The position numbers and the translations under genes were made by a program. Shown in pieces: positions 37,101 to 58,100 of a DNA stretch of 64,000 bases (position 1 is its first letter; every line of letters starts with the position of its first letter). The stretch is from Owenia fusiformis (Eukaryota > Annelida > Polychaeta > Sabellida > Oweniidae), in assembly GCA_903813345.2 (NCBI GenBank), contig CAIIXF020000002.1:18488813-18552812 (forward strand), given 5' to 3'. The notes below the pieces were generated by a model. It ran no database searches. It was not told the origin of the DNA and saw nothing but the letters and a program-made list of their open reading frames with translations.

Positions 37101-40100
37101 GGATATAACAGGTAAATAAAGAGGGGACAAGTATAGAGCCTTGATACACAACTGATTAATAACTAACCTAGACTACATATCATTCATAAGGGAACTAGTA
37201 TTACTAATTAATTAAATAAATAAAAAAAGAACAAGTATATAGAGCCTTGGGGAACAACTGATGTATTAATGAATACTCACTCTGCAGGTTGTATGCTACT
37301 AGTGTCTGTTGATTCTCCCGATTCTGCACTTCTTACAGCTTTAAAGAGGTGTTCCTCAACAATAAGCGCATGCTCCAGTAACTAAAAAGTTTTAATACAA
37401 TACTGTATTACTTTAACAAATTAGTGAATGTATTAACATGTTATTGTAGATTTATTACCATGGTGATGGATTAATGAATAAATTGGAATTGAAAACAAAA
37501 TTTGATAATTTTAGAATAAGAAATGGAGCGGAGATATTGAGGAATGTTGGCTAGATTGAAATAATGAATTTTTCTCCACAACTTTTTTGAGAGTGTACAA
37601 TGTGATTTTCAAACACATATGAGGAGACATGGTTTATTCTTTTGTCATTCAAAATACACTTATCGTAGCAAGTACTTACAGCAAAGCGACGACTCAAGTA
37701 CTTGGCCTGGAGGTAGGGCGACATATCGGGCATGTTGCGGAATGGCTCCCTGAGGAACTGATATCTCGGATCCTGCCAAATAGCAGCCCATTGAGCGCAC
37801 CCGTGAACAACTACTCCTGCAAGCAGCCAGTAGTCATGACGACGATGCCATATTTGGGCTTGTGTGTCTTTTGGGAAACGCATCATTATTCGTTCCTCAT
37901 TCTCCCACACTTTCTTGAGATCAGTAAAACCACCTTCTACGATGTTGAAGACTCTTTGAAGACATTCCAATGTGTGTTTTTCCTTCTCCTCGGGTGTCAT
38001 CTTTTTTTCTTTTTCTTCTTCTTCAATCTCTTGAATGTCTTTCTCTTTTATCTTAGATTTAACTTTTTCTTCTGATTTAGTCTCTTTCTTTTCATACTTA
38101 ATTTCAGGTTCATCTTTTACATCTTCGTCCTTACTTTCTTCTGCTTTCTCCTTGGTTACACCCGAATCATTTTTTGTGGCAGTATCTTTTGATTTTTCAT
38201 CATCTTCTATTTTAATCTCTTCTTTTGATTCAGTCTTAACTTCATTATCTTTATCTTCCTTGCTCTCATCCTTGACTTTTACATCTCCATCTTTTGAAGT
38301 TTCTTCTTCCATCTTTACGTCTGTCTTCATATCCTCTTTGACCTCTCCTGTTTCATCATCGCGCTTAATGTCTTCAGATTTAACTGATTCATCTTCCTTA
38401 GTATTTTTATCTGCTTCCCTTGATTTGTCATCAACTGAGTTGTTCGTTTTATCATCAGTCTCCATGGGTTCATCTTTAGTGTCATCTTTACCTTTCTTAT
38501 CATCAATTTCTTTCTCTTCATCATCCTTTGCATCTTTCACGTCATCCTTGGAAGTCTCCTCCTTAATGTCTTCATCCTTGCTGTCTTTGTCTTCCTTCTC
38601 TTCATCTTTCATCTCATCCTTGGAAGTCTCCTCCTTAATGTCCTCATCCATCCCGTCTTTGCCTTCCTTCTGTTCATCTTTCAACTCATCGTTGGAAGTC
38701 TCCTTTTTAATGTCTTCATCCTTGCGATCTTTGTCTTCCTTCTCTTCATCTTTCAACTCATCCTTGGAAGTCTCCTCCTTAGTGTCTTTATCCCTGTTTT
38801 CTTGGGCTTGTTCCACTTCATCTTTTGCCTGTTTGTCTTTCTTCTTCTTTTCATACTGTTTTACAAGGTTAGGTGACATCACATATGGAATGCTCACATA
38901 TCCATTGATCTTTTCAAAATCTGCCACCTGTAACAGATTTGTATATTTGACTATTTGCTATGCATCTGGATAGAAATATTAACTTAATTTTTCTAATTTC
39001 AACAATATCTTCAGTGAAATTCTAACAATTGTTGCGATTTTTATACCTTTCTGCGTACGAGTGCCATCATGCCTATCCTTGTGAGCACATGATGACGGGA
39101 GATACCTTCACGAGGGACCCCATCATTGAAATTGATGGCACTATCAGAGGTAGGCTCACAGAGATGGCGAAGGAACATAGAGACGTATGCCCGCACAACT
39201 TTCTCAGGCTTGGACTTCAACTCCCTTGGCAGCCTATGTGGATAAAATAAAACATAAATTTTATTTTATTTTTGCATTTACGGCGAATTAACAAGCAGTT
39301 ATTTAACACATACATGTAAAACTGGCTATTTTGTACATTCCTTTAATTAATGATTCAATTTAATGGACCATTTGCTAGCTAGGGATTGTTTTAAAATCTA
39401 TTTAATTACCATTTTGAGTTGTAAGGATCCTCCGGAGGCATTCCATATTTCATTACAGCCTCTAAGAAGACACGCCTTTGTCTTGCAGTGAATCCAAGTA
39501 CCTCAGTTTGGCCATTGATCTTGGCCAATAGAGGGGGCATAGGAGCATCGGCAGCTGCTTTCTGTGCAGCTTGGATTCGTTGTCTTTCTTCAGTCGTTTC
39601 TGAAAACAGGTATGAAGTATTGTACAAAATAACTAATGCTTTTTATATAGTCAGTGCACATCCCAACTCCACCCTCTAAAATCACGGTACCATACAGTAC
39701 CATAGCTGAAATGGTACACGATGGTTCTGCAGCAGATTGGCTGTGTAATTAGTTGACCTTTGGATCTTAGTTAAAAGTATACCTACATGGCTAGTACATA
39801 GAGTTTCAGAGTTCACACATACATTAATAGAGCCCCAGTGTCTATACTGTACTTCATGTATGGGTTATGTATGCACAAGGGCCACAAGAAAAGGACAAAA
39901 ATTTGTTACAGAACACAGCAAAAATTAAGAGTACACCAGTTGTATGGCAAACAAACCCCAACTAACCTAAATCATAATCTAACATGAAAAGAAACGATGT
40001 CATGTCAAGTATGACATATACACAAAAATGAACAGTTTGATTTTCTGATATTTTCTCAGTTCTGCATTTTGTTCAATTCTTTATCTAACTCTTTTTGTAC

Positions 40101-55100: not shown

Positions 55101-58100
55101 TTTGTTTTGTTTTATTCAGCCTAGAACTGAACAGTTTACACTATAAAAGCCTCAAATGGTTTACTTATAGATAAGGCAGATCAACCAAGGGAAAGATCAA
55201 TACCCGGTGATTTCAGCGGGAAGTGGCGTTTCGTTCAGTGGATGAGCTGCGCGCGCACGCATAAATGTGATTATCCAATATAATTAGGGGAGGGCTATTT
55301 GAAATAGTTTTTGGTCTCAGGCGCGACCCAGGGCTGTTGTCTTAAGGACATTCCGTTGAAAATGAGCCATTCGGCTGATAATTGGTAAGAGTTTGCGATC
55401 TTATAATGTATAACTGTTACTCAGACACATATTTTGACACGATTCTGTTGGAAATAAGCTTTGAACCGAGAGATATTCACGATTGATATGCACATTTTTG
55501 ATTGTGCCATTGCTTTTCCATTGCACAATCCATGTATTGATAGAAGAAACATTAATAATGCAGATTGGTTTACCTTCAATACATGGCAGACACTACATAT
55601 CGGTCTATTAATACCAGTTTGTGTCTTAAATAGTTTTATATTCCATCCACGGCCTGGAGCCTGGGTGTGTTTGTCTCTTATGTGTATGCTTGTACATGGA
55701 CTTCTAATCACTAGCAGAATTTAACATGATGCAAACTCGACATTATAACTCATGCTGTAACATTTTGACTTCGCTGGAAAACAATAGGAATTATTTTTCT
55801 TGCCAATCAATCATGAATCACAATCAAAATTTCAGAATGATCAGTCAGGCAATGGTCCAAATCAAGTTATAACATTATATGATATTCAGCAAGAAGTCCG
55901 GTAGAAATACAGAATATTTAAACATCAAAGCTGAAAGTTAAAAGCTAATCTGTCAATTTTCTGTCTGCAAAAGAGCGCTTACATTTGACACAATAACAGA
56001 CTGAGGCTTTGAAATCTAGGATTCCCCAGGAAAATATGACGTCATACTAATTAGCATAAGGATTTCCCTATTGGTCTGGGTCGAGCCTTGTTCGAAAACA
56101 CAATCCATAAATACATGCTAATTTCTAAGGAGATAGGAAGTGTATAACGTGTTTATCGATTTTGTTTAAAGATTTAATCAATTATCAAATTGTTTAAGTG
56201 GATAAAGTGGTCACACTTGCTTCAATTCATAGCGAAATCGACGGATAGAAACTGACCGAATTCCCGATATCCTACCCCGTATTACTGTAGGCTATAAGCA
56301 CAGTGACCTACAGAGGGCGCTATCACAAACAAGTACTGCACGAACCGATAAATTCCCGGGTATTGTATCGCCCTTGGATCAACCAATTCATCAAAACATA
56401 AAGAATTCTAATATTTTTCTTTTAACAATTGTTTGTACACTGCCCCAGCCTTACAACCTATTTTACTCTATGTACTACAGAGTTTCCTATGAATCTACCA
56501 TAATATGAAATAATTATCTCACAAAACGGAGCATTTCAGATTCTTACGTCGTTTCCTATGAATCTACCATGATATGAAATAATTATCTGACAAAACTGAG
56601 CATTTCAGATTCTTACGTCGTTTCCTATGAATCTACCATAATATGAAATAATTATCTGACAAAACTGAGCATTTCAGATTCTTACGTCACTTCTCTTGAC
56701 AGTGCGTCTGGTCCTCGTACTTTGCCTTTCTGGAGGAATCACAGCTTTCTTCTTGGCCGAGTCATTTTCAGCTTCGATGTCTGTAGCGCTCTAAACAATA
56801 TGAGTTATTTAAAAACAAGGCATAACCATGCAAAATGTCACCACCTGCCATTTGTTACAAATGATGAATACCGAACACACACCAATGAACATCGTCCACA
56901 AAATGAACAATGTCACCACTTCTGGTGGTGACATATTAAAAATTGTATTCAGGTAAAATATATATACATTAAAATCTTTTCGATGATTTTAATTAACATG
57001 GAAGTCTATTGCAGATTAAAAACAGAATTTGAAAAAAGGACCAGGGTTCACATTGAGAGGTGTTCAGATTAGAGTTGAAAAGTGTTTGGATATTCAGAGT
57101 TTACTGTATTTATAAAAAACATTTTATGTACATTTTTTTAGTTTATTTTAATTTTACATTAATTTATAGAAGCAATTTTCATAAATCCTGAATTAACAAG
57201 TATTTTGCATCATGCTCCATTCAGAATGTTGACCATAAGCAGATATGACTGAATTTAGTCTCAAAGAATTAAACATATTTAGTATATTTACATTGCTTTA
57301 AAAATACAAGGTACAAAACGATCTATTGTTTTTAAAATATCATATGAATCAGTTTAATCACGTAAACATTTTTATTGATAATGTTCTGCTTACATCTGAC
57401 TCTACTTGCTTCTTCTTTTTCTTTTGCTTCTTCTTCTTTTTTTTCCTTCTCCCTCCATCATCATCATCATCTTCTTCAGGGATGGAGATGTCACTCTCCG
57501 AGTAGACTTTAAACTCTTCCTCCTCGTCAGAGTCACTCCCCTTGGCCTGTGGGTATGATTCAATTTCAATTTTACTTTGTGATAAATACTACTGATCTGA
57601 GAAGTTTTTTGTTAATACTCGATATTCCAGATTTAAAATGATTTGTGTGCTTTATAGATATTAATGCTGTTTTGAATTTCGATGTTGACCTTTTTTAATT
57701 CTTGAAGTGGAAATATTGGTGGCCATATTCAGATAAGGAAAACCATTTTAAATTGAAGAGTTGTTTCAAGATCAAATATGCATATAATATATGCGGGTCA
57801 TGTCGTGTGCGGGTCGGGTAATTTCAAGTCGGGTCAGAAGAAAAATGGATTTAGTACTAGCAACTGAAATGACCGGTTGAATATATGGCACATTAAGAAG
57901 TGTAAATTATTTCATGTTCGTAATTCATACATAACCAAGACTCTGGTTGACTTCAGGTCGGTGTGACACCTCTAGTTATTAGACATTAGTTTCGAAATTG
58001 TCCAATAATTTAGCATCTTCAAATGTTCACTACCGTATGTAACATCAGAACTGAATTGACTTAACATACCTTTTTCTTTTTCTTCTTTTTCTTCTTTTCT

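Follow-up and report, generated by a model that had tools for sequence, protein, structure and literature searches.

Several exon–intron junctions of the Mi-2/CHD4 gene of the annelid Owenia fusiformis have tandem or local copies of themselves inside the adjoining introns. The gene lies on the minus strand of the 64,000-nucleotide window analysed here (contig C2:18488813-18552812 of a 498-Mb assembly). The copies are beyond chance as sequence identity, but not as placement on exon edges. They are very probably locally born, length-variable minisatellites, of the type called mirages in amphioxus, whose repeat unit chances to span a junction, and which most likely play no part in the regulation of Mi-2. 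The analysis covered DNA sequence from one assembly with two haplotypes. The original prediction for this locus had described a single gene with duplications of its own splice junctions, explained either by slippage seeded at exon edges or by decoy sites tuning gene dosage.

The gene model used throughout is given in window coordinates.

37281..59713, minus strand: annotated part of the Mi-2/CHD4 gene (exons 2-34 in the numbering of the original prediction), called on in-frame splicing with AG/GT junctions; the gene continues below 37281

All 33 exons placed had GT donors in a check by script, and 32 of the 33 had AG acceptors; the exon 2 acceptor (59713), which is the start of the annotated gene, was read by eye from the sequence. 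With exon 2 extended 5′ to 59825 and an ATG added in front, the spliced exons gave 1,941 codons without a stop. Exon 16 matched CHD4 in PDB entry 6ryr (E 1e-28).

Junction copies in Mi-2 and their variation between haplotypes

Local copies were sought with 40-base words centred on the exon edges, a second copy being accepted within 1.5 kb at a cut-off score of 18, and reversed flanks served as the null. Five of the 66 edges reached the cut-off, namely the donors of exons 7, 9 and 26 and the acceptors of exons 27 and 28, whereas no edge of the 66 did so in the null (maximum score 16). These five had all been named in the original prediction. The predicted copy of the exon 30 donor was rejected, since its 13-bp match lies within chance, and the sequence at the copy site is not the same in the second haplotype. 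The partial copy of exon 10 that had also been predicted proved real, although diverged and without a junction: its alignment score was 25, compared with a maximum of 18 in 300 letter shuffles. The copies are listed below; arrays were delimited with Tandem Repeats Finder (TRF).

56482..56688, minus strand: array on the exon 7 donor, 69 bp x 3.0 (TRF)
53834..53870, minus strand: diverged copy of the exon 9 end including the donor, source 53897-53933 (37 bp, 4 mismatches)
53438..53495, minus strand: diverged, partial copy of the exon 10 body without a junction, source 53549-53606 (alignment)
44007..44622, minus strand: array on the exon 26 donor, 38 bp x 16.7 (TRF)
42345..42571, minus strand: array on the exon 27 acceptor, 85 bp x 2.2, with inner 27-bp repeats (TRF)
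41225..41591, minus strand: array on the exon 28 acceptor and 94 bp of the exon body, 134 bp x 2.8 (TRF)
40088..40115, minus strand: exact 13-bp repeat at the exon 30 donor, below score 18 (the null reaches 16)

The units of the exon 7, 26 and 28 arrays clearly cross the exon–intron boundary. The exon 7 unit opens with three bases from the exon end, followed by the GTAAGAAT donor, the exon 26 unit holds 15 bases from the exon end and a GT that resembles a donor, and the exon 27 unit spans the boundary on the intron side, with the AG included. At exon 28, two extra copies stand upstream of the real exon on C2. Alignment of the exon 26 units of C2 showed that units 1, 2 and the last are unlike the more uniform inner units. 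Within the limits of the search, the units of exons 7, 26 and 27 had no match elsewhere in the genome, and that of exon 26 occurred only at the Mi-2 locus, on both haplotypes. Because the units are private to the locus, the arrays most likely arose where they stand.

The second occurrence of the exon 26 unit is on contig C124 (588,817 bp), the first 28 kb of which are collinear with Mi-2. Long matches were mostly 92–97% identical, falling to 88% over one 4.3-kb stretch, and the match with the window persisted ~47 kb from the start of C124. This contig was taken as the other haplotype; the alternative would be a recent large duplication. All 33 exons mapped to it, and the two proteins agreed at 1,923 of 1,941 aligned positions, a count that takes in the ATG placed in front and the extended 5′ part of exon 2. 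On C2 the frame was fully open, and on C124 the frame through the authentic junctions was open save for one stop, at codon 27-28, within the 5′ stretch of exon 2; this stretch is probably intron. The exon 6 acceptor of C124 (C124:3505-3514) reads GG instead of AG and the exon is 3 bp shorter; a nearby in-frame AG may serve in its place.

The proteins were near-identical, yet the arrays differed, which supports the interpretation of the copies as length-variable minisatellites. Copy number was unequal in three of the four junction-spanning arrays: exon 7 had 3 copies on C2 and 1 on C124, where the sequence matches on both sides, exon 26 had 16.7 and 11.7, and exon 28 had 2.8 and 6.8, respectively. 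The fourth array, at exon 27, had 2.2 copies on both contigs and was 99% identical between them. Among the remaining repeats of the gene, C2 and C124 differed in the exon 29 array (7.0 vs 11.0 copies), the exon 16 array (5.9 vs 3.3) and the 70-bp repeat at exon 23 (2.0 vs 3.0), and agreed in the exon 12 array (5.1) and the exon 11 repeat (3.5). Variation in three of the four junction arrays, together with the privacy of the exon 7, 26 and 27 units, bears out the slippage that had been proposed for this locus.

Intron lengths also differed between the haplotypes after exons 7, 22, 26 and 28 (1612 vs 269, 152 vs 1220, 2263 vs 699 and 478 vs 1626 bp). The extra stretch in intron 28 of C124 resembles a 135-bp repeat family at window 34990-35891.

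Placement of repeats and comparison with other genes

The random expectation for placement was obtained by rotating arrays and edges within short stretches. Of nine Mi-2 arrays with a TRF score of at least 100, four touched an edge, compared with 4.4 expected (p = 0.74), and the 15 non-coding arrays covered 4 of 65 edges, compared with 7.1 expected. In Mi-2, local copies were found for 15.3% of the intron-interior words (n = 1,500) and 12.9% of the exon-interior words (n = 800), as against 5/66 edges, and in the control genes described below for 553 of 4,650 intron-interior words; intron-interior points carry them about twice as often as edges do. Intronic repeat coverage was lowest within 10 bp of an edge in every set (6.7% in C2, 5.1% in C124 and 4.2% in controls). 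In C2 it was 17% at 100–200 bp and 11% beyond 400 bp, and in C124 it was 67% beyond 400 bp; in controls it was nearly flat from 10 to 400 bp (4.3–5.9%) and 10.8% beyond.

The controls comprised 31 stretches of the same genome, i.e., 12 SNF2-family, 11 myosin and 8 Cpn60/TCP1-family stretches (the last representing 7 genes), with 130 exons and 249 edges. Control edges were called from Pfam matches and splice-site weights trained on 32 Mi-2 introns, and individual calls may be in error; 116 of the 249 were paired and phase-consistent, and the remainder were best single guesses. Pfam matches lacking 20 consecutive residues free of stops were excluded, and three additional partial exon matches in L004, regarded as copies, were not entered as exons. 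This wider edge calling replaced a first control set with strict pairing of neighbouring domain exons, which gave only 23 introns, several of them with weak sites. The SNF2 and myosin stretches were picked for compactness, after tandem exon matches had been seen in L004 (SNF2), and the Cpn60/TCP1 stretches were picked before their repeats had been seen; bias in the choice of controls, if any, favours junction copies. Control arrays with apparent exon edges outside the searched domains (L008, L009, L012, L013, L020, L022) were counted on neither side.

A local copy was present at 13 of the 249 control edges (SNF2 4/69, myosin 4/97, CCT 5/83), and at 0/249 in the reversed null. The difference from the 5/66 edges of Mi-2 was not significant (Fisher p = 0.55). 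When only paired control edges were considered, 5/116 had a local copy and 4/116 were covered by an array (6.3 expected); over all control edges, 9/249 lay inside an array (14.9 expected). Pooling of Mi-2 and controls gave 18 of 315 edges with local copies, i.e., ~5% (95% interval 3.4–8.9%). Mi-2 is therefore not detectably special, and the junction copies are not the peculiarity of one gene that they had seemed: SNF2, myosin and CCT genes of the same genome behave alike. Examples of control arrays on junctions were as follows.

L004, acceptor: 137 bp x 4.8
L020, acceptor: 260 bp x 4.2
L032, acceptor: 83 bp x 3.8
L018, donor: 34 bp x 4.0
L028, donor: 154 bp x 2.0
L030, donor: 48 bp x 5.3

A separate array of 136 bp x 7.0 with 99% matches was observed in L035 (G000:C222:9800-12700), at 1014-1966, between two Cpn60/TCP1-family exon matches. 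Contig C222 was considered as a candidate for the other haplotype of the L033 CCT gene, and this was rejected, as no match was found between them.

Splice signals of the copies and competing explanations

The strength of the sites was scored with splice-site weights trained on the Mi-2 gene. At exon 26, the true donor scored 10.8, most copies 6.1 and the last copy 7.4, and at exon 9 the copy donor, which is present in both haplotypes, scored 3.7 compared with 6.2 for the true one. The direct copy of the exon 27 acceptor scored 4.9 (true site 7.4), and another site in the same array 7.6. The exon 28 copy acceptors ranged from 7.8 to 12.4, with true values of 10.7 in C2 and 7.8 in C124. Copy sites thus showed neither uniform weakening nor uniform retention of strength. 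Read-through past the true donor led to a stop after 3 codons at exon 7, 2 at exon 9 and ~11 at exon 26, and all eight extra exon 28 copies over both haplotypes reached a stop 8–44 codons after their acceptors. The early stops predicted for these four exons were therefore seen, but they are not specific: the median distance to a stop over 32 Mi-2 donors was 7.5 codons, and early stops are thus what introns of this gene generally give.

The arrays of Mi-2 were filed as mirage-type on their anatomy and haplotype polymorphism, and would probably be near-neutral, polymorphic by-products of a repeat-rich genome. Arrays were present in all three control families, where they made up 7.8% of bases; together with the copy-number differences in Mi-2, this shows that the genome holds many intronic tandem repeats and reshuffles them. 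With exon edges spaced ~350 bp apart in Mi-2, many arrays overrun one, and the number that touch an edge equals that of random placement. Such arrays are probably tolerated because the outermost copy, i.e., the first donor or the last acceptor, keeps the real junction beside an intact exon. The anatomy places the extra copies inside the intron, and the spliceosome may ignore them, as is suggested by the reverse transcription PCR (RT-PCR) of amphioxus mirages.

Several observations weigh against this interpretation. In Mi-2, 7 of the 9 arrays lay within 20 bp of an edge and 8 of 9 within 50 bp (4.8 and 5.5 expected; p = 0.11 and 0.07), a possible excess that is weak and non-significant; counted by edges over the same ranges, no excess was found in Mi-2 (7 vs 6.9 and 9 vs 8.4). 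In addition, with 66 edges, a modest excess of junction copies in Mi-2 over the controls could be missed. The exon 7 copy donors scored 8.0, the same as the true donor, and one exon 28 copy of C124 (12.4) exceeded the true site (7.8). Since some decoys equal or surpass the real site, some leakage into isoforms subject to nonsense-mediated decay (NMD) is plausible. In the exon 26 donor copies the GT was invariant in 27 aligned units, although neighbouring columns also vary little. Finally, the two haplotypes have the array at exon 27 and the copy at exon 9 in common, so not every copy is young.

The arrays could instead have been seeded by a mutational process that prefers exon edges, for example through microhomology of splice signals or transcription-linked breaks. 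Such a process would suit the five copied edges of Mi-2, set against none in the chance null, the position of several of the strongest arrays on edges, and the weak 20-50 bp excess just described. However, intron-interior words were copied more often than edges in Mi-2 as well as in controls, and covered edges were fewer than under random rotation in both. Repeats are therefore no commoner on edges than elsewhere, and the original prediction had itself named an equal density of repeats in introns away from exon edges as one half of an outcome that would count against it; for repeat density, this is what was found. These results weaken edge seeding rather than exclude it, as a modest bias could be concealed by purifying selection acting at edges, and we consider the process unlikely.

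Regulation by decoy sites is less probable still. The copies would then compete as splice sites and send a controlled share of the Mi-2 pre-mRNA to NMD, thereby tuning dosage. They do include usable-looking sites, and stops follow closely past the exon 7, 9 and 26 donors and in the exon 28 copies, but such stops are generic in this gene. The decoys are neither consistently weaker nor consistently stronger than the true sites, and unrelated genes carry junction copies about as often. Conservation of the decoys was also lacking, because copy number differs between two haplotypes of one genome at exons 7, 26 and 28, with the exon 27 array and the exon 9 copy shared.

It is very improbable that the tandem copies are assembly artefacts, either invented or wrongly counted. 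Repeats that are nearly identical pose difficulties for assembly, and C124 could be misassembled; the exon 7 array was found on one contig only. However, both contigs carry the other three junction arrays, in two cases with variant copies that are not the same, C124 is a long contig whose match to the window persists at ~47 kb, and the exon 28 copies, at 72–95% alike, are too diverged for assembly stutter.

The least credible explanation is that the copies, chiefly those of exon 28, serve as alternative exons or as members of a mutually exclusive set: their acceptors are good and they match a real exon 28 junction with up to 95% identity, but none of the eight extra copies passed as a complete exon with an open frame and both splice sites, and by inspection the repeat unit stops short of the donor of the exon. 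Tandemly duplicated and mutually exclusive exons are local exon copies in tandem, and the exon 28 copies share this with them, differing in the lack of an open frame and a donor end.

A tandem exon cluster does exist in the same genome. In L036 (G000:C9:37985900-37994600, minus strand), a myosin heavy-chain gene, there were 12 tandem matches to one head exon, and for 9 of these a script could delimit an exon of 157 bases with an open frame and a splice site at either end. The proteins of all 12 were mostly 60–98% identical, with one distant member at 37–56%. Judged from its sequence, L036 looks like a very large cluster of mutually exclusive exons; exon 28 is unlike this picture of a working cluster.

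Neighbouring repeats, known systems and meaning

Apart from the junction copies, the following repeats were found close to exons of Mi-2.

40716..40931, minus strand: minisatellite 32 bp x 7, ending 6 bp before the exon 29 acceptor, without a junction copy (TRF)
46063..46202, minus strand: repeat 70 bp x 2.0, 14 bp after the exon 23 donor (TRF)
49846..49939, minus strand: minisatellite 16 bp x 5.9, 45 bp before the exon 16 acceptor (TRF)
52138..52285, minus strand: minisatellite 29 bp x 5.1, 19 bp after the exon 12 donor (TRF)
52942..52992, minus strand: repeat 15 bp x 3.5, 30 bp before the exon 11 acceptor (TRF)

Minisatellites within ~30 bp had been reported for exons 12, 16 and 29; the distances confirm exons 12 and 29, and exon 16 falls outside this range. 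The exon 29 unit had one weak relative elsewhere in the genome (73%). The long exon 33 contains, at window 38500-38825, an in-frame 72-bp coding repeat x 4.1 that is rich in Lys, Asp and Glu and similar in both haplotypes, i.e., the same repeat habit within coding sequence. A ~35-bp motif of a dispersed element was noted by eye in four Mi-2 introns (window 58484-58440, 56880-56821, 47535-47484 and 46060-46021). Outside the gene, a ~355-bp repeat at window 9289-9643 is listed at more than 30 places on many contigs with ~96% identity and is probably a young mobile element.

The mirages of amphioxus are described as minisatellite-like tandem duplications of exon–intron boundaries (PMC3087553, PMC3902484). 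The globin gene BflGb6 is reported with two haplotypes of 6 and 3 units, donor and acceptor sides of globin genes are both affected, and RT-PCR suggests regular splicing (PMC3087553). Besides the globins BflGb6 and BflGb9, cases are given for PGBD5, Adh (Adh3) and TnC (PMC3902484), and the units described measure 10-72, 150-160, 60 and 108 bp, with AG/GT signals in many copies (PMC3087553, PMC3902484). The Mi-2 arrays resemble them in boundary-spanning units of similar size, in the involvement of both sides and in copy-number differences between haplotypes. They differ in that the amphioxus cases come from a cephalochordate and are accompanied by RT-PCR, whereas the Owenia arrays are described from DNA sequence; on the other hand, Owenia offers several arrays in one gene and a rate estimated over many genes. 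Somatic instability has reportedly been seen for the Adh3 mirage.

Two further systems are comparable. In the RdRp gene of potato, a new intron arose through tandem duplication across a boundary (PMC4974935). There too the duplication carries its own splice signals; in Mi-2, however, the real exons are unchanged and the copies are confined to existing introns. Human genes in segmental duplications have variable internal tandem repeats that can reach exon–intron boundaries (PMC2812944). These share minisatellites at boundaries and variable copy number with Mi-2, but according to that account they alter exons and introns of young primate paralogs, whereas Mi-2 is a single conserved gene whose protein is kept. 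No report of junction-spanning minisatellites in an annelid was found among the titles and opening abstract lines listed by a literature search, which had most subscription journals outside its reach; a search aimed at minisatellites in Owenia yielded no papers.

As a feature of Mi-2 the arrays are ordinary; as a property of the genome they are useful. We tentatively suggest, while giving it slightly less than even weight, that junction-spanning minisatellites are a genome-wide, ongoing feature of this non-chordate animal, at ~5% of junctions and hence, by extrapolation, at thousands of them. If so, the mirage type of minisatellite would be extended from lancelets to an annelid, and annotators of such a genome should expect false exons and misplaced junctions. 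The lineage would keep presenting its spliceosome with rows of near-identical splice sites, and such rows at conserved genes, differing between haplotypes, would be a natural experiment on which copy the spliceosome chooses. New introns, displaced exon edges and duplicate exons could also arise from them continually, which bears on the old idea that introns originate by tandem duplication.

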